A stretch of DNA of 64,000 nucleotides, taken from assembly GCA_934569225.1 (NCBI GenBank), contig CAKTKC010000015.1, positions 1-64,000 on the forward strand. The letters are read 5' to 3'. Positions 19,200-29,484 of this stretch are shown in pieces (position 1 is the stretch's first letter; each line of letters opens with the position of its first letter). A program made the position numbers and the translations under genes. Source of the stretch: an uncultured Oscillospiraceae bacterium. Its GTDB lineage: Bacteria; Bacillota; Clostridia; Oscillospirales; Oscillospiraceae. Under the pieces are notes generated by a model, which saw nothing but the letters and a program-made list of their open reading frames with translations, ran no database searches and was not told the DNA's origin.

Positions 19200-20279
19200 T
19201 TAGGAATTATTTTTCAGGTACTCATAAGCGGCGAGTACATCTACGATTGCATCTTTTTCGTTTTTGGTAACAATGTGATCCTCGTAATACTCATTGCCTT
19301 GGAACCTAATAATCGTTTCATCGGAAGCAGCAATGTTCCGCAGTAGTTGAATTTCCGAAGCGTCCGGTTCGAAGTCCGCTGTTTCCCATACCTCGGTATC
19401 ATTATCCCGGGTAATATCGCTGCGGCTGAATAATTTGGTTGTATTTTCCCCATCCACACTGAAAATTACCGTGTTGAAGAAAATCCAGCCTGCGTCTGTT
19501 TGTGCATCCGTATAATTCAAGGAAACTCTCAGCCAGGTATAGCCACTGTCCATGCGCCCAATGTAGGGATAGATGTAGCAGCATATATCCGTATACTGCG
19601 GCTCATTCTTATGCTGATACCAGGTCAACTTCTGAACCTTATCGTAGGTCGTTTTCAGGTTCTTCAGTGCTGCCTCACCTGCTGCCCGCTTTGCGGCATT
19701 AACAGCATCTTTCTTCTCTGCCGCGACACTACTCTCGGGGCTACCCGGGTAGTAATTCACAATCAGATCGGCAAGGCAAATCACACCGTCATTGTTCGCA
19801 GTGCTTTCTTCCTGTTCCAGGTATCCCATCAGATCTGTCGCAGACAGCCTTTTAATTTCGCAACCAGTAGCGGTCGACAGCGTGAGAGTACCGTTTTCGT
19901 ATGTAAAATTGGAATAGCCAGTTGAATTGCTGAAGTTGTAGCTGATCTTTTCTTCCTCTACGGTGTAAGTACCGGACAGCGCAGTTGCTGCACCAACTCC
20001 ACAGTTGATTAGGGTGTATGTAATCTGATTATCCTGGTATGAATACAGGGCGAGAGTTCCATCCATACTTGTGTCGACCCAGACGCCCTGCAGAGCATCC
20101 GGTACAAGCTCAGCATAATTCATTGTAGGCTCAGTTTCCTCGGCTTCTGTTGTTTCCAGTATAGGCTCCGCCTCTGTCGGCTCGATCTTTTGCGCTTGCG
20201 TAGATTCTTTGACGTCTCCGCAGGCGCACAGGGACAGGCACATTATAAGTGCCAAGAGCAGAGAAATTGTCTTTTTCAT
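19200..20279 (-). CDS. Lipoprotein of unknown function
   Basis: A 359-residue predicted surface lipoprotein. The signal is MKKTISLLLALIMCLSLCAC with the lipidated Cys at residue 20. After an acidic Glu/Thr linker, residues 55-160 are rich in beta-strand patterns with Trp, Thr and Tyr, reminiscent of lipocalin-like or DUF domains. The middle has a helical Ala/Lys segment and the end is acidic. No family is recognised. The ATG at 20279 follows AAGGA; the promoter lies between it and a divergent regulator gene and carries operator-like repeats. Base composition is lower in GC than the neighbouring housekeeping genes, which fits recent acquisition. Confidence 0.75.
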   Translation of the reverse strand: MKKTISLLLALIMCLSLCACGDVKESTQAQKIEPTEAEPILETTEAEETEPTMNYAELVPDALQGVWVDTSMDGTLALYSYQDNQITYTLINCGVGAATALSGTYTVEEEKISYNFSNSTGYSNFTYENGTLTLSTATGCEIKRLSATDLMGYLEQEESTANNDGVICLADLIVNYYPGSPESSVAAEKKDAVNAAKRAAGEAALKNLKTTYDKVQKLTWYQHKNEPQYTDICCYIYPYIGRMDSGYTWLRVSLNYTDAQTDAGWIFFNTVIFSVDGENTTKLFSRSDITRDNDTEVWETADFEPDASEIQLLRNIAASDETIIRFQGNEYYEDHIVTKNEKDAIVDVLAAYEYLKNNS

Positions 20280-20304
20280 TTGCGATCCTTCTTTCTTAGA
20301 GTAT

Positions 20305-20360
20305 ACCAATAACCGATATTGGTTAATATGATTATACACCATATTCGGTTATCATGTCAA
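20305..20360 (-). promoter_or_regulatory. Lipoprotein promoter with two operator-like repeats
   Basis: On the minus strand, TTGACA (20355-20360), 18 base spacer and TATAAT (20331-20336) form a strong promoter. The sequence ATAACCGAATATGG fills the spacer and a related inverted copy, ATAACCGATATTGG, lies just past the -10 box. The two sites are inverted to each other. They suit a repressor, most simply the Cro-like protein encoded next door. Confidence 0.75.
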
Positions 20361-20382
20361 GTAAGAAAGGGGGCTGCGTCCC

Positions 20383-20586
20383 GTGATTTCTTACGATAAT
20401 CTGTGGAATGTCATGAAAGAGAAGGGCATCACACAATACATGCTCATCAAACGGTATAATATCAGCCCCGGACAGATTACGCGGTTAAAACGGAACGAGA
20501 GCGTCAGTACCCATACCATTGAGATGTTTTGCAGAATTCTGTCCTGCGAAGTCGGGGACATCATGAAGTATATTCCGGATGATTAG
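20383..20586 (+). CDS. Cro/C1-type small regulator
   Basis: A 67-residue single-domain DNA-binding protein of the XRE (Cro/C1) type. The helix-turn-helix spans about residues 15-40 (TQYMLIKRYNISPGQITRLKRNE), and the C-terminal motif EVGDIMKYIPDD is common in this small class. The start is GTG with AAGGGGG 10 bases before it. It is divergent from the lipoprotein gene and probably represses it and itself through the paired repeats. A stem GAGCAGA/TCTGCTC with T run just after the stop ends it. Confidence 0.85.
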   Translation: MISYDNLWNVMKEKGITQYMLIKRYNISPGQITRLKRNESVSTHTIEMFCRILSCEVGDIMKYIPDD

Positions 20587-20604
20587 AGCAGAGAAATCTG
20601 CTCT

Positions 20605-20864
20605 TTTTCTTTTGGGAAGCACATCCTCATTTTCTTCATCAAAAACACCCCTAAAACAGCAAAAACAGGAAGCACATCTTGCCGGATTTCTTCGGCAGGA
20701 CGTGCTTCCTTGCTTCATTTTTGCGAAAAGTGGGGTTTGAACTTTTGAGGTTCAAAAGCAGGGGTTTAATCTTACTTTTTCAGCGCTTCCTCAACTGCAA
20801 CAGCCACGGAAACGGTAGCACCGACCATGGGGTTGTTGCCCATGCCCAGGAAGCCCATCATTTC
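20605..20864. repeat. Left 260 bp direct repeat of the integrated element
   Basis: Matches 28316-28575 at a fixed offset of 7711 bases with only scattered differences and no gaps. From left to right it holds the first dozen codons of a tyrosine recombinase (minus strand), a terminator hairpin, the inverted core TTTGAAC-7 bases-GTTCAAA (20736-20756), and the last 31 codons of the GGGtGRT gene. It is the left boundary of the element and also a remnant of an earlier copy, because it carries the truncated start of an integrase. Confidence 0.85.
20772..20864 (-). pseudogene. Duplicated 3' end of the GGGtGRT gene
   Basis: Encodes only the last 30 residues (EMMGFLGMGNNPMVGATVSV and the tail ending in LKK) in the same frame as the intact gene at 28483-29484. 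There is no start and no ribosome binding site. It is the by-product of element insertion at the end of that gene. Confidence 0.85.
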
Positions 20865-21149
20865 CACGTCAAATCCGCCTGTCGGCGGCTTTGTGCCTGC
20901 GGCGCAAGGCTTTTTCGTGCTGAAAACCCAACTTTTCACAAATCGGGAAACACGTCCCACATTCCAATAGAATGTGCTTTCTTAACTGGCTGCATTTTAT
21001 CACATCTTCTGTCCACGAAACAAGCCTTTCTGACTTAATTAAACACCTTTTTCCATCTTCTTTTCTTCTCTATCATCTTTTATCATCTCTGTATCATCCT
21101 GCTGCCAAGAGAAGGGAAAGCCAATCAAAAATAAGTGATTTCTTTTCAT
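20865..21149. other. Gene-free left end of the element
   Basis: No credible gene. The bases become AT-rich, with repeated ATCATCTTTT-like pyrimidine tracts near 21060-21100. It could hold recombinase arm sites, but none was identified. Confidence 0.4.
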
Positions 21150-21188
21150 AACCTATCCTATTATAGCGGATAGGTTCTTTTGTATAAT
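21150..21188 (+). promoter_or_regulatory. Promoter with palindrome at the -35 region
   Basis: AACCTATCC (21150-21158) and GGATAGGTT (21168-21176) form a perfect 9 bp palindrome just before TATAAT (21183-21188), preceded by TG in an extended -10. The palindrome covers the -35 region, as expected for a repressor site; it could instead be a terminator hairpin. Confidence 0.55.
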
Positions 21189-21288
21189 CTGGGTGTAAAG
21201 ATTGAGAGAGATAAAAACAAAAACCTCTCCGAAAGAAATAAGGGTTGCGACCTATCGCCACGGCCAAGAGCCGAGAAAGGAAATCACC

Positions 21289-21786
21289 ATGAACACCACT
21301 ACTTCCACCAATTCCACCGTCCGTTTCACCATCGACTTCTTCAAGCAGACCATTACAGGCACCAAGGCCAGCTTTGCCAAGGCCGGAAAGGGCGTCGGCC
21401 CTGAGTATGAGGAACTGACTGCGAAAATGGCGGCTCATCCCACCTTTACGCTGACGGTCAAGGAGCAGAAGCACAAGGCGACCAGCGCCAAGAAAACCTA
21501 TGAGGGCATGGACTTCAAGTTCATGGAGGATTACATTGCGACCTTTGAGGATGCCGCTTTGGCGCATGAATATGAATCCGTCAAGCAGATGGCGAAAAAA
21601 TGCGGGACCAAGGCTTACCCTCTGACCAAGAAGTGGTTCCTGGGCAAGTTCAGCGATAAGGAAAGCGGTTTCGATATGGATGCCGCAAAAAAGGCTATTG
21701 CCGACTTCCGTATTGAGAAGGCAATCAAGAAGTCCTCGACCAATGCTCCTTCTGACAACGCAGAACAGACCAACGAAGCAGCTTAA
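21289..21786 (+). CDS. Element protein of unknown function, paralogue A
   Basis: A 165-residue soluble, lysine-rich protein of no recognised family. It shares a pattern with the next protein: a helical region with MEDYIATFEDAALAHEYESV and then a YPLTKKWFLGKF motif near residue 120, against YSLVRKWFTAQF in the neighbour. The ends are polar (Thr/Ser-rich N-terminus; Asn/Glu-rich tail). The ATG at 21289 follows GAAAGG at 8 bases. First gene of a five-gene run in the element. The resemblance suggests an old tandem duplication. No signal peptide or membrane segment is present. Confidence 0.75.
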   Translation: MNTTTSTNSTVRFTIDFFKQTITGTKASFAKAGKGVGPEYEELTAKMAAHPTFTLTVKEQKHKATSAKKTYEGMDFKFMEDYIATFEDAALAHEYESVKQMAKKCGTKAYPLTKKWFLGKFSDKESGFDMDAAKKAIADFRIEKAIKKSSTNAPSDNAEQTNEAA

Positions 21787-21819
21787 TCCACCCCCACATA
21801 GAAAGGAAAGGTATTTACC

Positions 21820-22290
21820 ATGGAAAAGTTCAAGTTTGATGTTGTTACCCAGACCCTGACCATTACTGCCAAGTTTGCAGAGGCCATGAATACCCCCGAC
21901 AGCGATGAATACACGCTGGTGCAGAAATTCAGAGCTGATTTTCCTGCGCTGGTGATTGTCAGAAAAACCCACAAATCCGCCACCCATTACACGACCAAGA
22001 GCGGAGAGAAGTTCCACTGCAACCAGTTCAAAAATCTGACCTATGAGCGTATGGAGAAGTTCCTTTCTGCCCTCCCCAAGCGTGAAAGCTATCTGCGGGA
22101 ATACACCTTCGTGAAGGACTTCGCTTCTGCCGTCCAGCACAACGGTTATTCTCTGGTGCGGAAATGGTTCACGGCGCAGTTCCCCGAGTTTCGGACGAAC
22201 CCTCTGTTTTATCTCACCCATTCTCCCGAGGTGGTCAATGGAATGACCTTTCTGGACGAGGAAACCAAAGCCGAAAAGAAAGCGTCCTGA
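21820..22290 (+). CDS. Element protein of unknown function, paralogue B
   Basis: A 156-residue soluble protein, related to the preceding gene. It starts with a beta-type stretch (FKFDVVTQTLTITAKFAEAM), then LTYERMEKFLSALP and YSLVRKWFTAQFPEF near residue 120. The basic, aromatic KWF motif is shared by both paralogues and may be the functional core. AGAAAGGAAAGG precedes the ATG. The gene is followed by a perfect 15 bp hairpin before the next start. Function unknown; helpers of phage-like satellites are a possibility but only a guess. Confidence 0.75.
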   Translation: MEKFKFDVVTQTLTITAKFAEAMNTPDSDEYTLVQKFRADFPALVIVRKTHKSATHYTTKSGEKFHCNQFKNLTYERMEKFLSALPKRESYLREYTFVKDFASAVQHNGYSLVRKWFTAQFPEFRTNPLFYLTHSPEVVNGMTFLDEETKAEKKAS

Positions 22291-22305
22291 TTTTGAATCA
22301 CACTA

Positions 22306-22340
22306 TTAACATTGGAAAATACCATATTTTCCAATGTTAA
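22306..22340 (+). repeat. Perfect 15 bp inverted repeat before a putative DNA-binding gene
   Basis: TTAACATTGGAAAAT and its exact complement flank the loop ACCAT. No T run follows. The same half-site returns after the next gene (23029-23082), so it looks like a protein-binding site or attenuator. Confidence 0.65.
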
Positions 22341-22372
22341 CAGCCCACTTGAATGTTCCAGAAGGAGGAGCC

Positions 22373-23020
22373 ATGTTAGAAGAAAAGACCTACACCCTCC
22401 CTCAGCTTGCCCAAGAGCTGGGAGGGGCAGCAGACCGTCAAAGCGTTCTGAAAAAGCTGCAACGGCGAGGGATTGCCTACGCCGCAGAGGGCCGAGGCGC
22501 AAAGCTGAAAATCACGATTCAATCCATTCCAGACCGTTTCCCAACCTATTGCATCCGAGAATTGCAGTTTGCCCCCAATTCCGACTTTGAAAAGGTCCGC
22601 AACCTGTTCTATTACTGCTTCAATGACGAGGAATTTTTTACCTATCCCGATGAACGGAAATCTGCGGCCTTGGAGGAATGCGGCCACCACGTCTCACGGC
22701 AGAGCATCGCCGTCTATCTGCAAAAGCTCTATGATTTGGGCCTCTGGTCCAAGAGCAGTCAGGAATTTGTCTACTACTTTGCCCACGGCGGACTTTACCG
22801 AGAAGCCGACAAGCAGGAATACTTGGAGGCATGGCACGACTACTGGGGCTGGAAAGAGAAATTCGGCGGAGAGCTGAAAATCGTCTGTCCGATGATTCTT
22901 GAAAAATACGACGGTTTTCCGAGAAAGCAGGCCGTCCCCGAAGCCAATGCCATGGAACAGGAGGCAATTCAGACACTGATTGCTCTTACCAATGAAAGTT
23001 ATGAACGGGCTTACGGATAA
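22373..23020 (+). CDS. Putative DNA-binding protein of the element
   Basis: A 215-residue protein without a recognised family. Its N-terminus, YTLPQLAQELGGAADRQSVLKKLQRRGI, has the look of a helix-turn-helix of the excisionase or MerR kind, and the middle region (SRQSIAVYLQKLYDLGLWSK) resembles a second winged-helix segment. The ATG at 22373 follows AGAAGGAGG. The gene is framed by two related inverted repeats of the half-site TTAACATTGGAA, which may be its own targets. Position in the element suggests a control or replication-related role, but this is inference. Confidence 0.7.
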   Translation: MLEEKTYTLPQLAQELGGAADRQSVLKKLQRRGIAYAAEGRGAKLKITIQSIPDRFPTYCIRELQFAPNSDFEKVRNLFYYCFNDEEFFTYPDERKSAALEECGHHVSRQSIAVYLQKLYDLGLWSKSSQEFVYYFAHGGLYREADKQEYLEAWHDYWGWKEKFGGELKIVCPMILEKYDGFPRKQAVPEANAMEQEAIQTLIALTNESYERAYG

Positions 23021-23028
23021 CTTTGAAC

Positions 23029-23082
23029 CACACTGTTAACATTGGAAATATAAATAGAACTATATCCAGTGTTAATAGTGTG
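23029..23082 (+). repeat. Second inverted repeat of the TTAACATTGGAA family
   Basis: CACACTGTTAACATTGGAAATA pairs imperfectly (about 19 of 22) with the bases ending in AGTGTG. It repeats the half-site seen at 22306-22340, so two related palindromes flank the gene in between. Confidence 0.6.
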
Positions 23083-23160
23083 AATTAAAAAAGCAAAACA
23101 GGACAATCCATCTATTCCATTTTCCATAAAGAGTAGAAGAAAAAAGAAGGAGGCAAACCA

Positions 23161-23352
23161 ATGAGCCTAATTGATGATTTTTTTAAGGACGTGCCTGAAT
23201 ACTACGATTCCATGTGCATGGACGGTTATACCCCTGAGCAGATCAGATACGCCCTCCACAAGAAAATGAACAGACAGCAGGCAGAACAGGAAGAGATTGC
23301 GGATTCCGTGGATTCCATCAAGATTAAGAGCGAGGTGAAAATCAAACGATGA
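23161..23352 (+). CDS. Small element protein, 63 residues
   Basis: A 63-residue acidic protein beginning MSLIDDFFKDVPEYYDSMCMDGYTPEQ and ending in a charged SIKIKSEVKIKR tail. GAAGGAGG stands 8 bases before the ATG. It has no signal peptide or membrane segment and no recognised family. Its stop overlaps the next start (ATGA), so the two small genes are coupled. Confidence 0.65.
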   Translation: MSLIDDFFKDVPEYYDSMCMDGYTPEQIRYALHKKMNRQQAEQEEIADSVDSIKIKSEVKIKR

Positions 23353-23504
23353 GCGAGAAGAAAGAGGACAAGAAGAAAAAGAAGCAGTCCGTCCTTGAGA
23401 AGGAGATTTTCAGCATTATGGAAAAGTCCATGAAAACTGCGCTGGATGCGGCAGTGGACGATTTATTAAAGGACTGGGACAAGGAAATCAAAATCAAACT
23501 ATAA
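23349..23504 (+). CDS. Small lysine-rich element protein, 51 residues
   Basis: A 51-residue protein with a lysine-rich start (MSEKKEDKKKKKQSVLEKEI), a helical centre and a charged end DKEIKIKL. The ATG overlaps the stop of the preceding gene by the ATGA pattern. The ends of both proteins share an EIKIK/EVKIK ending, hinting that they interact or arose together. A strong terminator follows directly, closing the five-gene run. Confidence 0.6.
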   Translation: MSEKKEDKKKKKQSVLEKEIFSIMEKSMKTALDAAVDDLLKDWDKEIKIKL

Positions 23505-23507
23505 GAG

Positions 23508-23558
23508 AAACGGCAAGCCGACACAAGGAAGAACCTTGGTTGGCTTGCCGTTTTTTTC
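23508..23558 (+). terminator. Terminator of the left gene run in the element
   Basis: AAACGGCAAGCC pairs with GGCTTGCCGTTT, followed by a run of T. Confidence 0.9.
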
Positions 23559-23812
23559 GTTTTCTGCCGTCTGCGCCGTGTGGCGTGAAAAAAGGGCTGT
23601 CCGCAAACAGACCTGAAAGCCGTTTGCTGAAATCAAATCCTCTCTTGGTAGGAGCGCAAGCCACGCCTTTTTTCGTTCGGTGGGAAATCATCTGGCTTTC
23701 CTGTAATACAGCCCCCTGTTCAATCAACCATTTGGTTTCGACTACACTTTTGGTTCCCCAAAAACGCCCCTGAAAGCGTCCCAAAACGCTGACTTTTTGT
23801 TCAGGAAACACG
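23559..23812. other. Gene-free stretch in the element
   Basis: No supported gene. A minus-strand frame runs through it, but it crosses the terminator of the facing genes and lacks family features. Confidence 0.4.
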
Positions 23813-24040
23813 TCAGCCCCTTTCGCTGACATCGTCCTCTTTTACATACTCGATCAGATCGGCAGGCTGGCAGTCCAGCAGAGCGCAGATTGTGTCCAAC
23901 GTTTTCCACGACACCAGTTCCCTATGCCTCAGCTGTTGGAGGTAGGACTGACCAATCAGTTTTTCTTCACGGATTTTGGTAGAGGTGTAGCCTTTCTTTT
24001 TCAGCTCTGCCAACACGTCTACCTTGTAACGGATTGCCAT
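23813..24040 (-). CDS. C1-type repressor of the element
   Basis: A 75-residue XRE-type DNA-binding protein. The helix-turn-helix covers about residues 18-45, and the C-terminal DTICALLDCQPADLIEYV matches the small YozG-like repressor class. The start at 24040 follows AAAAGGAGG. It is divergent from the promoter of the right gene run; three 17 bp operators lie between. This layout is that of a phage-type switch that keeps the element quiet. Confidence 0.88.
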   Translation of the reverse strand: MAIRYKVDVLAELKKKGYTSTKIREEKLIGQSYLQQLRHRELVSWKTLDTICALLDCQPADLIEYVKEDDVSERG

Positions 24041-24068
24041 AAAATGCGCCTCCTTTTCCATTGTCCTT

Positions 24069-24175
24069 ATTCTATCACAGATATGCACTAAAATCAAGTG
24101 CTAATTTTGAACAAATAAAGCACCAAATATTAGTGCAATATGTCAATAGACAGCACCAGCAATTAGTGCTATAAT
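24069..24175. promoter_or_regulatory. Three operators between divergent promoters
   Basis: Three 17 bp palindromic sites of the form GCACY-7-AGTGC lie at 24085-24101, 24120-24136 and 24153-24169. The third exactly fills the spacer between TAGACA (24147-24152) and TATAAT (24170-24175), the rightward promoter. The first covers the -35 region of a leftward promoter (TTGATT and TAGAAT on the minus strand) of the repressor gene. Confidence 0.85.
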
Positions 24176-24296
24176 ATTCTTGTAATTGAGGGGCAGCCAA
24201 TTTCAACACTGCCTGTTGTAAGCCCCCTGAACAACCCACAAAGGAGCAGCGACAGCACGGAGAGACGGCAAAACAAACACAAAGGAGAAACCGAAA

Positions 24297-24575
24297 ATGT
24301 CTAAAATCGAACTGCTTGCCAAGATTGAACTGCTGAACAAATACGAAGCCATGATGGAGGAACTCAAAGCCGAGGCCGACACCATCCGCAACACCATCAA
24401 GGCAGAGATGGAAGCCAGAGAGTTGGAGGAAATGATTGCGGGACAGTATATCATCCGCTATACCGCCGTTCTTTCCAATCGGTTTGACACCACGGCTTTC
24501 AAGAAGGTAATGCCGGAAATCTACAAGGCTTACACCAAGCAGGTTTCCAGCCGCCGCTTCACCATCAGCGTGTAA
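24297..24575 (+). CDS. Small element protein with N-terminal coiled coil
   Basis: A 92-residue protein. Residues 1-45 form a charged heptad-like helix (KIELLNKYEAMMEELKAEAD), and the rest has the pattern YIIRYTAVLSNRFDTTAFKKVMPEIYKAYTKQ seen in short phage and element proteins of Firmicutes. AAAGGAG stands 9 bases before the ATG. It is the first gene controlled by the operator array, upstream of the resolvase, so it is made when the repressor is released. Function unknown. Confidence 0.7.
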   Translation: MSKIELLAKIELLNKYEAMMEELKAEADTIRNTIKAEMEARELEEMIAGQYIIRYTAVLSNRFDTTAFKKVMPEIYKAYTKQVSSRRFTISV

Positions 24576-24622
24576 TAGAAAAGGCGGGGCCAAAAGCCCC
24601 GCCACCAGAAGGAGAGATTGTT

Positions 24623-25210
24623 ATGGATTACGGCTATTCCAGATGTTCCACCAACGAGGGCAAGCAGGATATAAACCGCCAAGTGCGGGAACTGCGGGCG
24701 GTAGGAGCGCAGGAAATCTTCATGGAATACGAACACGGGGACGCAAAGGTAAAGAGCCAACAGGCCCAGATGTTTGCGGCAACCCAGGCGGGCGACACCA
24801 TCATTGTTTTGGAGGTTTCCCGGCTTGCCAGAAGCACACAGCAGCTTTGTGAAATCATCGACCTTGTGCGGGAGAAGCGTCTGCGGCTTGTGATTGTGGG
24901 GTCTATGACCCTGGATTGCCGTGAGGGCCGTTCAGACCCGATGAGTGAGGCGTTTTTGCAGATGGCGGGCGTGTTCAGTCAATTGGAGTTGGCAATGATT
25001 AGAAGCCGTGTGCGCTCTGGAATGGCGAACGCCAAAGCAAAGGGAAAGCAGATCGGCAGACCCCAACGCACCGCCGAAAGCATTCCCGCAATCTTTCTTC
25101 GGCATTATCCCGCCTATAAAAACGGGCAGTTAAATGTTTCAGAATTGGCAAGGGTTTGTGATTTGAGCAGGACAACGGTTTATAAATACCTTTCGCTTTT
25201 GGAGGGGTAA
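24623..25210 (+). CDS. Serine recombinase (resolvase/invertase class)
   Basis: A 195-residue serine recombinase. The catalytic Ser9 lies in YSRCST, the conserved GDTIIVLEVSRLARS (around residue 55-69) and the RSRVRSGMANAKAKGKQIGRP hinge follow, and the end has a helix-turn-helix (LNVSELARVCDLSRTTVYKYLSLL). Size matches resolvases and invertases. In this element it could resolve multimers or invert a segment; the main integrase is the tyrosine recombinase. AAGGAGAG precedes the ATG. Confidence 0.92.
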   Translation: MDYGYSRCSTNEGKQDINRQVRELRAVGAQEIFMEYEHGDAKVKSQQAQMFAATQAGDTIIVLEVSRLARSTQQLCEIIDLVREKRLRLVIVGSMTLDCREGRSDPMSEAFLQMAGVFSQLELAMIRSRVRSGMANAKAKGKQIGRPQRTAESIPAIFLRHYPAYKNGQLNVSELARVCDLSRTTVYKYLSLLEG

Positions 25211-25243
25211 CGGAAAAGGGTGCCGATTGGGGCACCCTTTTCC
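25211..25243 (+). terminator. Two-way terminator
   Basis: CGGAAAAGGGTGCC pairs with its complement around GATTG. It lies between convergent genes and has T-rich arms on both strands. Confidence 0.8.
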
Positions 25244-25244
25244 G

Positions 25245-25445
25245 CTATCTTCGGCCAATCACTTTTTCACCTTCTGGCAAAATACGATAGAACCGTTTTC
25301 CATTGTTCCAAGAAACTTCAATCATCCTGTTTTCTAGGCAAAAATCAACAACGCCAGCAGCCACTTTCCTATCAATTGCATCTGCGGAATATATTTGATT
25401 GCCAAAGAAAAATGAATGCAGAAATTCCGTGCTGTCCTGAATCAT
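25245..25445 (-). CDS. Small protein, possibly winged helix
   Basis: A 66-residue soluble protein with the sequence pattern AIDRKVAAGVVDFCLENRMIEVSWNNGKRFYRIL, which resembles a compact winged helix. It starts three bases after the stop of the PH-SHOCT gene, in the same direction, so the two form an operon. No family is recognised and its function is unknown. Confidence 0.55.
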   Translation of the reverse strand: MIQDSTEFLHSFFFGNQIYSADAIDRKVAAGVVDFCLENRMIEVSWNNGKRFYRILPEGEKVIGRR

Positions 25446-25448
25446 ACT

Positions 25449-26015
25449 TTACAATCCCAGCAATTGCTTTTTCTTTGCGTCAAATTCTTCCTGGGAGATA
25501 ACGCCACTGTCAAGCAAATCTTTATACTTTTTCAGTTCATCGGCATTGCTCTGGGGAATTTCCTGCTGAATGACATGAGCGGGAGCCGACTTCGATTGGC
25601 GTTCGATCAGCAAACCGCTGATTGCTCTATGAATTTCGTCGGCATTTTTCAATCCGAGAAAGCTGATTTTTCCGGACGAAGTGGATACGGCGATGCCACT
25701 AAAGAGTGCCATCGAGCTGACGGCAGAAATACTGTCGATAGGGAGATCGACTCTCTTCCCAAATGCTGCCTTGCCATACACACGAACATTGGTAACAACG
25801 ATTTGACATTTCCCAATGTACAAGAGCAGGACCACTGCTGACGCAACCAAAATCAGGCCGCCAAAGAACATACAAAAATACTCAAGGCCGCCATTTCCGA
25901 AGTCTCCGCCGTCATAGCCAAGCGGGATAAGGAAAATGCCAACGACGGCAAGCAGCACCGATAGCCACTGTGATGAATGAGAATACGTTCCGCTGATGAT
26001 GTTTTTTTCTTCCAT
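25449..26015 (-). CDS. Membrane protein with PH-like and SHOCT domains
   Basis: A 188-residue protein with two hydrophobic segments near residues 18-35 and 50-70, then a bacterial PH-like region (QIVVTNVRVYGKAAFGKRVDLPIDSISAV), and at the end a SHOCT motif (LKKYKDLLDSGVISQEEFDAKKKQLL). The architecture is known from Firmicutes elements and phages; SHOCT is a short oligomerisation module. The ATG at 26015 follows GGAGGG. A terminator-like hairpin stands just upstream. Role unknown; a membrane-associated sensor or defence role is possible but unproven. Confidence 0.75.
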   Translation of the reverse strand: MEEKNIISGTYSHSSQWLSVLLAVVGIFLIPLGYDGGDFGNGGLEYFCMFFGGLILVASAVVLLLYIGKCQIVVTNVRVYGKAAFGKRVDLPIDSISAVSSMALFSGIAVSTSSGKISFLGLKNADEIHRAISGLLIERQSKSAPAHVIQQEIPQSNADELKKYKDLLDSGVISQEEFDAKKKQLLGL

Positions 26016-26029
26016 GATGTGTTTCCCTC

Positions 26030-26066
26030 CAAAAATAAAAAAGTGCGGCAACCGAAGTTACCGCAC
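26030..26066 (-). terminator. Minus-strand terminator in front of the PH-SHOCT gene
   Basis: AGTGCGGTAAC and GTTGCCGCACT (minus strand) form a stem around TTCG, followed by a T-rich tract. It would stop transcripts coming from the right, or attenuate the operon. Confidence 0.65.
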
Positions 26067-26320
26067 TGAAAAACGCAACTCCGATTGTCGCCAAACAAAG
26101 CCCATAGACAAAGGAACTACACGTCACCATCGCCGTCCGAGTGGAGTGCGTTTTTACCGAACGCAAATCGGACGGAAAAGGTAAAAGGGTAGACCTCCCC
26201 CTTGGTGATTGTGTGAGTTCTTTGTATTCAGCTTTGTTTGGCACGGTTATCATACCACATCCGTCCGTAAATATCAACGGCTAAGATTTGAAACGCACTC
26301 TTTTTTCTTTGCTTTTGGTG
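26067..26320. other. Gene-free stretch with a long stem
   Basis: A stem between CCGTCCGA (near 26139) and TCGGACGG encloses a smaller stem GTGCGTT/AACGCA. No supported gene; a minus-strand frame with one hydrophobic stretch was not accepted. Confidence 0.4.
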
Positions 26321-26329
26321 TGATACAAT
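26321..26329 (+). promoter_or_regulatory. Extended -10 promoter of the WYL gene
   Basis: TGATACAAT matches an extended -10 (TG, one base, TACAAT), about 30 bases before the start codon. No good -35 box is seen. Confidence 0.5.
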
Positions 26330-26356
26330 AGAGAAAAACTTCTGCGGGGTGCGGGT

Positions 26357-27367
26357 ATGGCAAATTACGGGAAATACTACATTGCCGAGCGGCTTCTGAT
26401 TCTGAAGCAGTATCTGGAAGCCAATGCGGGCAAGAACAGAATTGTCACCCGTGGAGAGCTGGAAGGGCTTTTGAAGGAACACGGTATTACCGTCGAGAAG
26501 AAAACCCTCTATGCGGATTTCGCCGCTCTGGGGGACATCTGCGGCTTACAGCTGGAATACGACGTTCACAAGAAGGGATATCGGCTTCTAAATCCGCCCT
26601 TTGAGCCTTACGAGCTGCGGCTTCTGGTGGACAGCGTGCAGTCCTCCAAGTTCATCACCCAAGAGAAAGCAAAGGAAATCACCGCCAAGGTCAAGCGATT
26701 TGCGGGCAAGGACACCGTGGATAGCCTGAGCCGTGAAAACCACGTTGCCAACCGTATTCGGAGCATGAACGAAAGCGTGGTGAAGGATGCCGACCGCATC
26801 CACGAGGCTATCCGCAAGGACCTAAAAATCGGCTTCCGTTACTTCCACTACACTCCCGCCACAGGAAAGGAAAAGACCTATTCCAAGGACGGACAGCAGC
26901 TGATTGTCAGCCCCTACGACCTCCTTTGGAACAACGGCAACTATTACCTCTACGCCTACGACGGGAAGAAGTTCCGCTATTACCGTGTGGACCGCATGGA
27001 GCGCATCAGCCAGCCTCTTGCGATTCCAAGAGACGGAAAAGCCCTTTATCGGGAAAAAGACGTTACCGTCCAGAAGGCAAAGGTTTTCGATATGTACGGC
27101 GGGCAGGCATACAAGGTGCGAATGCGCTTCCGCAATGAACTGGCAGATGCCGTGGTGGACCAGTTTGGCAAGGACGTGATGATGATTCCCAGTGATGCCG
27201 ACCATTTCACCATCACTGTCCCCGTGGAGATCAGCCCCACCTTCTTTGCATGGGTTGCGACGTTTGGAAGGAGGGTGAAGATACTGTCCCCTGAGCCTGT
27301 CGTTGCAAAAATGCGGGAATTTCTGCAAAAATCCTTGGATATGTATCAAAATGATGGAGAGGCGTGA
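26357..27367 (+). CDS. WYL-domain transcription regulator
   Basis: A 336-residue regulator. Residues 1-80 form a helix-turn-helix (YIAERLLILKQYLEANAG, KKTLYADFAAL), residues 140-230 form a WYL domain (KIGFRYFHY, VSPYDLLWNNGNYYLYAYD, FRYYRVDRMERI), and a C-terminal WCX-like region follows. WYL regulators bind ligands, in some cases nucleic acids, and often control defence or mobile-element genes. Here it is a single-gene unit inside the element, upstream of the integrase in the opposite direction. Confidence 0.9.
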   Translation: MANYGKYYIAERLLILKQYLEANAGKNRIVTRGELEGLLKEHGITVEKKTLYADFAALGDICGLQLEYDVHKKGYRLLNPPFEPYELRLLVDSVQSSKFITQEKAKEITAKVKRFAGKDTVDSLSRENHVANRIRSMNESVVKDADRIHEAIRKDLKIGFRYFHYTPATGKEKTYSKDGQQLIVSPYDLLWNNGNYYLYAYDGKKFRYYRVDRMERISQPLAIPRDGKALYREKDVTVQKAKVFDMYGGQAYKVRMRFRNELADAVVDQFGKDVMMIPSDADHFTITVPVEISPTFFAWVATFGRRVKILSPEPVVAKMREFLQKSLDMYQNDGEA

Positions 27368-27381
27368 AAACACCTCTCCAT
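27354..27381 (+). terminator. Terminator overlapping the end of the WYL gene
   Basis: ATGGAGAGGCG pairs with CACCTCTCCAT around TGAAAA, with a short T-rich tail. The stop codon lies in the loop. Confidence 0.65.
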
Positions 27382-27414
27382 TTGCTTATAGATGTTAAAA
27401 GATGATAGAAAACG

Positions 27415-28350
27415 CTAGGCTTTCATGCGAACCCGCTCCTGCTTCAGACTTCGGATAATGTTCACCTTGTCCACGTCCTCTTTCAAGTCGCTGGTCAGAA
27501 TATTCAGATAGTTTTCCGTGATTGCCAAGCTGCTATGACCTAGTATCTTTTGGAGTGTCACCACGGAGCCGCCCATGGTTGCCCATTTCTTTGCGAAGGT
27601 ATGCCGAAAACGGTGAACGCCAGTCTGTTCCAGCCCTCTTTCGTGGCAATAGTCCCAGATGGCATGGTAGCAGCTGCTTCTTGTGAGCTGTTTTCCGTAC
27701 ACCGAGCAGAAAAGCCAATCGTCAGCCACGCCGCCACGATACTGCAAATATTCCTGTAAAATCTTCACAATATCCTCATTCAGAGGGATAATCAGAGGCT
27801 TTCGGTTCTTTGTCGTATTGACATAGACCACACCGTTGTCAAAATCCACGTCTCTGATTTTGATGTTGACCAAGCTGTTCTGCCGAACGCCAGTAGAAAG
27901 CAGGAAATTTACAATCACCCAGCTTCGATAGGTGGAGAAGATGCACTTGCGGACGTCGGGCTTTTTCAGGAGCTTTCGCAGTTCTTCGTCTGTGTAGGTC
28001 TGAATGGGCACTTTGTCTGCTTTTGGAAGGGGAATCTCAAAGTGTGGGACATACCCGCATTTCATAAAAAAGCGCATCAGGGTTTTCAGGTCTCTGGCAT
28101 ACGTCCCCATGGAAACCTCATTCAAATTCGGGTCATCACGCAAAGCAATGTAGAACTTCTGCATGGTCTGCTGATTCAAAGAGGAAATCGGCGTATTGGG
28201 TGGGATTCTCTTGTAAATCTGTTTGACGGATTCCTGATAATGGTGGATGGTTCCGTCCCGTAAATTCCTTGCCTTGCAGTCCAGAATATATTCTTGGAAC
28301 CCGTCGCTGAACGTCTTTTCTTTTGGGAAGCACATCCTCATTTTCTTCAT
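27415..28350 (-). CDS. Tyrosine recombinase (integrase of the element)
   Basis: A 311-residue site-specific recombinase of the XerC/D and phage-integrase type. It has an N-terminal SAM-like core-binding domain (residues 12-100) and a catalytic domain with Arg156 (TGVRQNS), Lys181 or 184, His246 and Arg249 (HRFRHTFA), His272 (GHSSLAITENY) and Tyr281. The start at 28350 is used because the frame further upstream runs into the attachment region and this start has GGGGTG. The first codons lie within the 260 bp repeat, and the core site is about 100 bases beyond. Confidence 0.9.
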   Translation of the reverse strand: MKKMRMCFPKEKTFSDGFQEYILDCKARNLRDGTIHHYQESVKQIYKRIPPNTPISSLNQQTMQKFYIALRDDPNLNEVSMGTYARDLKTLMRFFMKCGYVPHFEIPLPKADKVPIQTYTDEELRKLLKKPDVRKCIFSTYRSWVIVNFLLSTGVRQNSLVNIKIRDVDFDNGVVYVNTTKNRKPLIIPLNEDIVKILQEYLQYRGGVADDWLFCSVYGKQLTRSSCYHAIWDYCHERGLEQTGVHRFRHTFAKKWATMGGSVVTLQKILGHSSLAITENYLNILTSDLKEDVDKVNIIRSLKQERVRMKA

Positions 28351-28575
28351 CAAAAACACCCCTAAAACAGCAAAAACAGGAAGCACATCTTGCCGGATTT
28401 CTCCGGTAGGACGTGCTTCCTTGCTTCATTTTTGCGAAAAGTGGGGTTTGAACTTTTGGGGTTCAAAAGCAGGGGTTTGCCCTTACTTCTTCAGCGCTTC
28501 CTCAACAGCAACAGCCACGGAAACGGTAGCGCCGACCATGGGGTTGTTGCCCATGCCCAGGAAGCCCATCATTTC
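28316..28575. repeat. Right 260 bp direct repeat of the integrated element
   Basis: Copy of 20605-20864. It includes the intact integrase start, the terminator, the inverted core (28447-28467) and the end of the GGGtGRT gene. Differences from the left copy are scattered single bases, most in the spacer between the core and the stop codon. Confidence 0.85.
28365..28420 (-). terminator. Terminator of the GGGtGRT operon
   Basis: On the minus strand, GGAAGCAC and GTGCTTCC frame an inner stem CCGG/CCGG region and are followed by T-rich bases. It separates the GGGtGRT operon from the integrase and is copied in the left repeat. Confidence 0.7.
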
Positions 28576-29484
28576 AACATGGGCAGGCACGGAGGAGGAA
28601 CCGGCAAACTGGGCGTCGGAGTGCATACGGCCCATGGTGTCGGTCATGCCGTAGGAAGCGGGGCCGGCTGCCATGTTGTCGGGATGCAGGGTACGGCCCG
28701 TGCCGCCGCCGGAGGCCACGGAGAAGTACTTCTTGCCCTGCTCGATGCACTCTTTCTTGTAGGTGCCGGCAACGGGATGCTGGAAACGGGTGGGGTTGGT
28801 GGAGTTGCCGGTGATGGAAACGTCCACGCCCTCGTGGTGCATGATGGCCACGCCCTCGCGGACGTCGTCAGCGCCGAAGCAGCGGACAGCCGCGCGCTCG
28901 CCGTCGGAGTACTTGTACTCCTTGACGATCTTCAGCTCGCCGGTGTAGTAGTCGAACTGGGTCTGCACATAGGTAAAGCCGTTGATCCGGGAGATGATCT
29001 GGGCGGCGTCCTTGCCCAGGCCGTTCAGGATGACCCGCAGGGGTTCCTTACGCGCCTTGTTGGCGGAGCGGGCAATGCCGATGGCGCCTTCGGCGGCGGC
29101 GAAGGACTCGTGACCGGCAAGGAAAGCGAAGCACTTGGTCTCGTCCCGCAGCAGCATGGCGCCCAGATTGCCGTGACCCAGACCGACCTTGCGGTCCTCG
29201 GCGACGGAGCCGTCGATGCAGAAGGCCTGCAGGCCGATGCCGATGGCCTCGGCGGCCTCAGCGGCGGTCTTGACACCCTTCTTCAGCGCGATGGCAGCGC
29301 CCACGGTGTAAGCCCAGCAGGCGTTCTCAAAGCAGATGGGCTGAATGCCCTTGACGATCTCGTAGGGGTCGAAGCCCTTTGCCTGGCAGATCTCGCGGCA
29401 CTCTTCCACGGAGGAGATGCCGTACTGAGCGAGGACGCCGTTGATCTTGTCAATTCTTCTTTCGTAACTTTCAAACAAAGCCAT
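28483..29484 (-). CDS. GGGtGRT protein
   Basis: A 333-residue protein of the GGGtGRT family, named for a loop present here as ASGGGTGRTLHPDN near residue 267. It is common in Clostridia and related anaerobes and is always encoded next to a NifU-like protein. Cys residues in PICFENACW and QAFCIDG may bind a metal or cluster. An iron-sulfur role is inferred from the neighbour. The start has GAGGAGG. The last 30 codons lie within the element boundary repeat, so the C-terminus was supplied or preserved by integration. Confidence 0.92.
   Translation of the reverse strand: MALFESYERRIDKINGVLAQYGISSVEECREICQAKGFDPYEIVKGIQPICFENACWAYTVGAAIALKKGVKTAAEAAEAIGIGLQAFCIDGSVAEDRKVGLGHGNLGAMLLRDETKCFAFLAGHESFAAAEGAIGIARSANKARKEPLRVILNGLGKDAAQIISRINGFTYVQTQFDYYTGELKIVKEYKYSDGERAAVRCFGADDVREGVAIMHHEGVDVSITGNSTNPTRFQHPVAGTYKKECIEQGKKYFSVASGGGTGRTLHPDNMAAGPASYGMTDTMGRMHSDAQFAGSSSVPAHVEMMGFLGMGNNPMVGATVSVAVAVEEALKK

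Follow-up and report, generated by a model that had tools for sequence, protein, structure and literature searches.

Phage satellites such as the phage-inducible chromosomal islands (PICIs) and P4-type elements are compact, encode an integrase and repressor-type regulators, carry no recognised structural genes and occupy sites that are also used by full phages. In conjugative systems, the 3' ends of conserved genes serve as targets. The tyrosine integrases of streptococcal integrative and conjugative elements (ICEs) insert into the 3' ends of guaA, rpsI, rplL, rpmG and lysS and group by target, according to the part of the published account cited here (PMC4701971). For integrative and mobilizable elements (IMEs) and cis-mobilizable elements (CIMEs), accretion on remnants is described in the cited part of a review (PMC5704250). 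Here, a stretch of 64,000 nucleotides from an uncultured Oscillospiraceae bacterium (assembly GCA_934569225.1, contig CAKTKC010000015.1), referred to as the window, was analysed. Judged from its sequence, the window holds a mobile element of 7711 bp (7.7 kb) lying between direct repeats, behind and inside the tail of GGGtGRT, a conserved bacterial gene without an assigned function. With a probability of about 0.85, the element belongs to a family of small elements that integrate site-specifically, their Xer-like tyrosine integrase recombining within the last 100 bp of that gene.

As in the streptococcal ICEs, as far as the cited text describes them (PMC4701971), the integrase lies beside the target, direct repeats are present, the 3' end of a conserved gene is kept and the integrases are grouped by target. 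In contrast, the target gene is another one, the window element carries no conjugation module, and the repeats comprise a gene end of about 90 bp plus shared flank, whereas those of the streptococcal ICEs measure 12-54 bp (PMC4701971). The small size, the tandem accretion on a remnant and the scars beside the attachment site are shared with IMEs and CIMEs as reviewed in the part cited; unlike in IMEs, no relaxase was recognised in the window element (PMC5704250). The elements are filed as a new family of site-specific integrative elements, and not as IMEs, ICEs or prophages. In the literature searched, mostly titles and abstracts, no earlier description of GGGtGRT as an integration site was found, in line with the preliminary description of this locus, which had regarded the target as non-standard.

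Element limits and probable point of exchange

The two direct repeats at the element ends, both of attachment DNA, are 263 bp long, 96% identical and spaced by exactly 7711 bp, as anticipated from the preliminary description (about 260 bp at this distance). The final 96 bp of the GGGtGRT gene lie in the right repeat, which also takes in the gap that follows and the beginning of a same-strand integrase gene. The left one holds the same gene end and gap, followed by only about the first 12 integrase codons, after which the similarity breaks off. The copies differ at several bases, as expected for two related elements. The G+C content per kb was 45-50% at 19-28 kb and 52-63% outside, and the foreign stretch probably reaches about 1.4 kb further past the left repeat (19.2-20.6 kb), as the remnant of a second element. 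The target gene was identified by its match to PF14057 (E 1.3e-198). The previous assignment of its 3' end as the target is supported.

Comparison with relatives shows that the gene 3' end is present twice, once on each side of the element. At the copy attached to the gene, a terminator-like hairpin comes next and then the integrase; beyond the distal copy there is chromosomal DNA or, in the window's case, sequence from a related, older element. Where both ends of a relative could be seen, its displaced gene end starts around ACGTGGAAATGATGGG, and the match of this end stops at or shortly past the stop codon, where unrelated chromosome begins. An exception is locus L025 (loci and genomes are designated L and G), in which the displaced end is followed by a second element, as in the window. 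All readable pairs have a common stretch containing ATGATGGG, and in L016 exactly these 8 bp form the identical block between flanking mismatches. For these two reasons the exchange was placed at a point within the gene that lies 90 bp before its end and is most likely ATGATGGG (codons 305-307).

The inverted motif TTTGAAC-N7-GTTCAAA, which had been described earlier as the core of each repeat, was indeed found in both copies; with up to 2 mismatches allowed, the window has no further occurrence (0.2 expected by chance). Its role as the crossover core was rejected because, in relatives, the match of the displaced 3' ends runs out at the stop codon or directly past it; the other single elements lack the motif behind their displaced 3' ends.

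Between the stop codon and the integrase, a hairpin of at least 13 pairs was present in all 27 gaps (27/27), compared with 72/540 shuffled sequences, when a stricter rule was applied to longer segments; the hairpin counted in L008 is not the conserved one. An earlier count, based on a loose rule and clipped segments, discriminated poorly (19/27 versus 202/540 shuffles). The gap hairpins are mostly followed by T-rich sequence. The outer stem varies in step on both sides in 22 hairpins anchored on a shared inner motif; because these sequences were preselected as hairpins, the share of paired bases is biased, and only the in-step base changes are informative. The hairpin is read as a terminator that would travel with the spare gene end. 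An inverted repeat common to the far ends, suspected by eye, was not upheld. A perfect stem of at least 6 pairs occurred in 4/12 far ends (L010, L023, L028 and L047; 75/2400 shuffles), 5 pairs were seen in the window, L006 and L027, and the stem was weak or interrupted in L013, L016, L020, L025 and L026.

An older element probably left behind the helix-turn-helix (HTH) and lipoprotein genes found at 19.2-20.6 kb, since C1-like HTH genes also follow scars in genome G320 (L222, L249) and in L226. Truncated integrases were found behind the GGGtGRT gene in L060, L067, L069, L070, L071 and L043 as well, and gap hairpins without an integrase behind the gene in other loci. L025 has a second integrase whose match ends at residue 275, which parallels the arrangement in the window, and tandem arrays and scars were seen among the relatives. 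From these comparisons we infer that the window element is a newcomer that landed by accretion between the scar of an earlier relative and the gene, which would explain the unusual length of the repeat.

Relatives and occupation of the site

Genome contigs were scanned with the integrase alignment, giving 66 loci. In 38 of them, a whole or truncated integrase lies directly behind the GGGtGRT 3' end, on the same strand and within about 430 bp. The integrase gene is located at one end of the element, adjoining the attachment site, in the window and in these 38 loci. A protein of 311 amino acids (aa), P0001, is 99% identical to the window integrase, for which the best NCBIfam match was XerA (E 2.3e-43), yet below the XerA cut-off. 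The other 28 loci consist of L031 and 27 loci with more distant or partial integrase matches. The contig of L031 starts 352 bp before the integrase, with sequence that corresponds to part of the gap between gene and integrase in L030. A tree of 52 rows placed the 27 GGGtGRT-linked rows together with L031 in one branch (support 100/100); the linked rows represent 26 of the 38 loci and the window, the other 12 having been left out as truncated or broken integrases.

As in the window, yebC faces the GGGtGRT gene on one contig in eight fetched loci of the closest genus (L249, L252-L258). None of the eleven element proteins was matched in L252-L257, and L249 matched the C1-like protein only. L258 matched eight of the eleven, namely the integrase (79%), the serine recombinase (79%), the WYL regulator, the 92-aa protein, the C1 repressor and the 51-, 156- and 185-aa proteins. 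The same locus is occupied by the element in certain relatives and free of it in others. The possibility that the same gene order is shared by all relatives as ordinary chromosome, raised in the preliminary description, fails because six of the eight comparable loci are without element proteins. The C-terminal residues of the GGGtGRT protein were nearly unchanged across the closest-genus loci read. In L228/L255 (genome G313) the GGGtGRT frame has an early stop, and a hairpin scar is present.

The length of the unit was 7711 bp in the window, 8030 bp in L006, 8569 bp in L013, 9313 bp in L016, 6843 bp in L020, 4754 bp in L025, 6409 bp in L026, 8895 bp in L027, 8439 bp in L028, in which too little sequence precedes the core for it to be displayed, and about 6604 bp in L047, which contains a run of N; a hand count gave about 7.7 kb for L010.

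PF14057 matches were detected in 190/295 genomes of one order. The stretch behind the gene was examined in 100 genomes, 95 taken in list order, skipping G002 (the centre, a known integrase carrier), G147 and G180, and five picked, among them three with a prior integrase match and one with several gene matches. The family hairpin was found behind the gene in 10/95 list-order loci and in 4/5 picked ones. Two of these ten had a whole integrase and three a truncated one, and in five none was detected in the stretch examined. The same rule, applied to control stretches further along these loci, gave 0/1919. Among 30 closest-genus loci (L216-L245, two of them without downstream sequence), a whole integrase was present in 2, a hairpin without integrase in 5, another integrase in 2 and a short insertion in 4, these classes overlapping.

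Gene content of the elements

The features of the window are compiled in Table 1. The integrase, resolvase and C1 repressor that had been named before were confirmed by matches to PF00589, PF00239 and PF13443, so that an integrase and a repressor-type regulator, both features of phage satellites, are present. In the open reading frames (ORFs) of the window that were scanned against protein families, no relaxase, replication or capsid family and no type IV secretion genes were found, which agrees with the reported lack of transfer and replication genes. Structural or packaging genes were not found in the element (ten element ORFs against PHROGs; Pfam), and packaging genes, capsid-hijack genes or a primase were not recognised with Pfam and PHROGs, several proteins being of no known function.

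Table 1. Coordinates of the element, its genes and the attachment region in the window
Feature	Position	Strand	Basis
Putative remnant of an earlier element beside the truncated integrase: lipoprotein (19200-20342, -), HTH protein (20383-20586, +)	19200..20604	.	
Distal direct repeat: displaced gene 3' end, inverted repeat, hairpin and first ~12 truncated-integrase codons (scar)	20605..20867	.	
Terminator-like hairpin, same as between gene and integrase, in scar	20667..20710	-	
Inverted repeat TTTGAAC/GTTCAAA, same, within scar	20736..20756	.	
Putative exchange core, distal copy, 7711 bp away	20854..20861	-	sequence comparison
Short inverted repeat at element far end, adjoining core; 5 perfect pairs	20872..20892	.	
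185-aa protein, no known function	21229..21786	+	29% match in L258
156-aa protein, no known function	21820..22290	+	32% match in L258
228-aa predicted winged-helix DNA-binding protein; dyad repeats flank gene on both sides	22334..23020	+	
63-aa protein, no known function	23161..23352	+	ORF; cluster F7, 4/26 element records
51-aa protein, no known function	23349..23504	+	ORF; 50% match over 32 aa in L258
Cro/C1-type HTH repressor	23813..24097	-	PF13443 E 9.2e-12
92-aa phage-type protein	24297..24575	+	phrog_6244 E 7e-15; 62% match in L258
Small serine recombinase (resolvase/invertase type), 195 aa	24623..25210	+	PF00239 E 1.7e-28; phrog_125
SHOCT-domain protein, variable cargo slot (content differs among relatives)	25449..26051	-	PF09851
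WYL/WCX-domain regulator	26357..27367	+	PF13280, PF25583
Tyrosine integrase, 311 aa from ATG (323 aa from GTG at 28386)	27415..28350	-	PF00589 E 1.7e-33
Gene-proximal direct repeat copy	28316..28578	.	repeat comparison
Terminator-like hairpin between gene and integrase	28378..28421	-	
Inverted repeat TTTGAAC/GTTCAAA between stop codon and hairpin; not the crossover	28447..28467	.	
Putative exchange core ATGATGGG, proximal copy	28565..28572	-	within shared stretch of every readable pair
GGGtGRT gene, 333 aa; final 90 bp (28483-28572) probably element-supplied	28483..29484	-	PF14057; proximal/displaced 3' end pairing in relatives

Winged-helix domains were predicted in the 228-aa protein, without a specific match. 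Copies of CACACTRTTAACAYTGGA are arranged in dyads on both sides of its gene (22299-23090), which may be operators or iterons. Such dyads were also observed upstream of the homologues in L020 and L026, and none was found upstream of those in L016 and L027.

Within 26 element records, complete or open-ended, the WYL cluster was represented in 13, the serine recombinase in 13 and a broad HTH cluster in 16. The delimited relatives (4.8-9.3 kb) share parts of a backbone made up of the integrase, the WYL regulator, the small serine recombinase, HTH proteins and variable cargo. For nine of them, 95 of 126 listed ORFs were used, including some shadow ORFs, with open-ended elements and some end or shadow ORFs excluded and the integrase of L028, hidden by a shadow ORF, missing from the set. 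These 95 ORFs gave 8 integrases, 7 WYL regulators, 6 resolvases, HTH families and 2 SHOCT proteins. A type II methylase and a type II restriction enzyme occurred once each; judged by eye, they are the neighbouring ORFs of L016. There was no relaxase, replication or capsid family among the best 25 of 29 Pfam families, and no structural gene among the best 25 of 45 PHROG families.

Additional cargo was seen in single relatives. Behind the integrase of L030 (6308-8041) a reverse transcriptase is joined to a trypsin-like domain, possibly a defence gene, and L017 has an HNH protein with a weak helicase match beside it. In L016 (9959-19251), the gene block from the integrase to the far end is reversed relative to the window; the small serine recombinase might invert it.

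Phages at the gene end, alternative explanations and significance

The plasmid collection contained no match to the element. In the phage collection six records matched, mainly at the gene end. Five were examined: L001, L002, L004 and L005 contain the GGGtGRT gene or its end, and L003 matched repeat DNA only. No integrase of the family was found in these five, L004 having one integrase match of 23%. Two pattern scans of viral contigs for element ends and one single-protein scan gave no match, and a scan with the integrase alignment gave 27 loci (L274-L300). In L275 (38.0 kb record) and L276 (35.4 kb), the gene 3' end is followed by a hairpin-like stretch and then by the integrase, as in the window element. 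Unlike the element, these phages measure 35-38 kb, and among the best 25 of 66 families matched by their 31 proteins were terminase, portal, head maturation protease, major head, tape measure, tail sheath and endolysin. The searched parts of both records showed no displaced gene end. A partial record of 12.8 kb (L274/L305) showed a terminase match and a serine recombinase 52% identical to that of the window. In a tree of 39 rows, the integrases of the phage records fell inside the clade (100/100), and so did L278 and L279.

Other insertions were observed at the same gene end. In L007 (1179-2438; = L217) and in L218, a different tyrosine-recombinase-like protein of 419 aa lies directly behind GGGtGRT (profile E 1.9e-9; same start in L218), and therefore another kind of element uses the site. 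In L007 this protein is followed by a displaced gene end and then by an integrase of the window's family. L169 and L173 have a second gene 3' end, with different boundaries, 3.6 and 4.3 kb downstream; no integrase of the window's family was detected there, and these are possibly further element families. Short insertions at CCCATGG in the same gene end (L222/L249, L227/L247, L232/L260, L242/L246 and L248) span about 95-250 bp from the stop codon to the second copy, and show hairpins as well as the last ~54 bp of the gene in a second copy; longer forms occur in L250 and L251. Their hairpin pattern was found once per genome, at the GGGtGRT gene, in 5/10 genomes searched, and a sixth genome (G317) had three weaker matches elsewhere.

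In the mechanism proposed for the family, a circle would carry the far end, the core ATGATGGG, the spare gene 3' end, the hairpin and the integrase. A single exchange at the core would swap the last 29 codons and the terminator of the host for those of the element, and displace the original 3' end to its far side. With codons and terminator supplied by the element, the host gene would stay intact. Control of excision and cargo is probably the task of the WYL, HTH and winged-helix proteins.

As to how the elements reach new cells, packaging by a phage of the same integrase clade is a plausible route, and the small elements are possibly phage satellites. Like PICIs and P4, the window element is compact, has an integrase and repressor-type regulators without recognised structural genes, and shares its site with phages; unlike them, it has no recognised primase, terS or capsid-remodelling gene. 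It is tentatively proposed that the GGGtGRT end is a landing site common to full temperate phages of gut Clostridia and to satellites of 6-9 kb without known packaging genes. Such satellites would share integrase lineage and att site with the phages, be moved by them, compete with them for the one site and leave layered scars behind the gene. A rival reading of fairly low probability is an IME or cis-mobilizable element moved by conjugation, with an unrecognised relaxase or one acting in trans at oriT. Size, 3'-end target, accretion and scars do match those of IMEs and CIMEs in the cited part of the review (PMC5704250), and several element proteins belong to no known family. The relaxase searches reported above, in the window ORFs and in the nine relatives, speak against conjugative mobilisation.

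An origin by decay from a temperate phage with this integrase is improbable. The full-size phages L275 and L276 at the same gene, with integrases of the same clade, and the serine recombinase of the partial phage record would fit such an origin, but nine relatives of 6.4-9.3 kb and the window retain parts of one compact backbone, and the best 25 of 45 PHROG families matched by the relatives included no structural genes. That the repeats arose by local duplication or assembly error is hardly credible, even though the repeat exceeds the usual length of attachment repeats, because the copies differ at several sites, as those of two related elements would, and the same architecture occurs with independent flanks in relatives. 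Site-specific integration by an element family is the preferred reading, and some points weigh against it. The relatives are mostly metagenome assemblies, with many contigs broken at the element, and the exact overlap bases depend mainly on one pair, L016. L279 (integrase 49% identical, within the clade) lacks a GGGtGRT match in the 178 bp that precede its integrase, and by eye it seems to lie behind another gene end, so that the clade may not be strictly bound to this target. No circle or recombination product was seen, so that any present activity of the element is hypothetical.

The analysis names an integration site of gut Clostridia with a simple genomic signature by which elements and scars can be found. 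It also opens a way to study small mobile elements whose cargo includes lipoproteins, SHOCT proteins and, in a single relative, a restriction-modification pair. The comparisons indicate that mobile DNA repeatedly provides a conserved gene with its C-terminal codons and terminator, a point of importance to studies of GGGtGRT and to its use in phylogeny.

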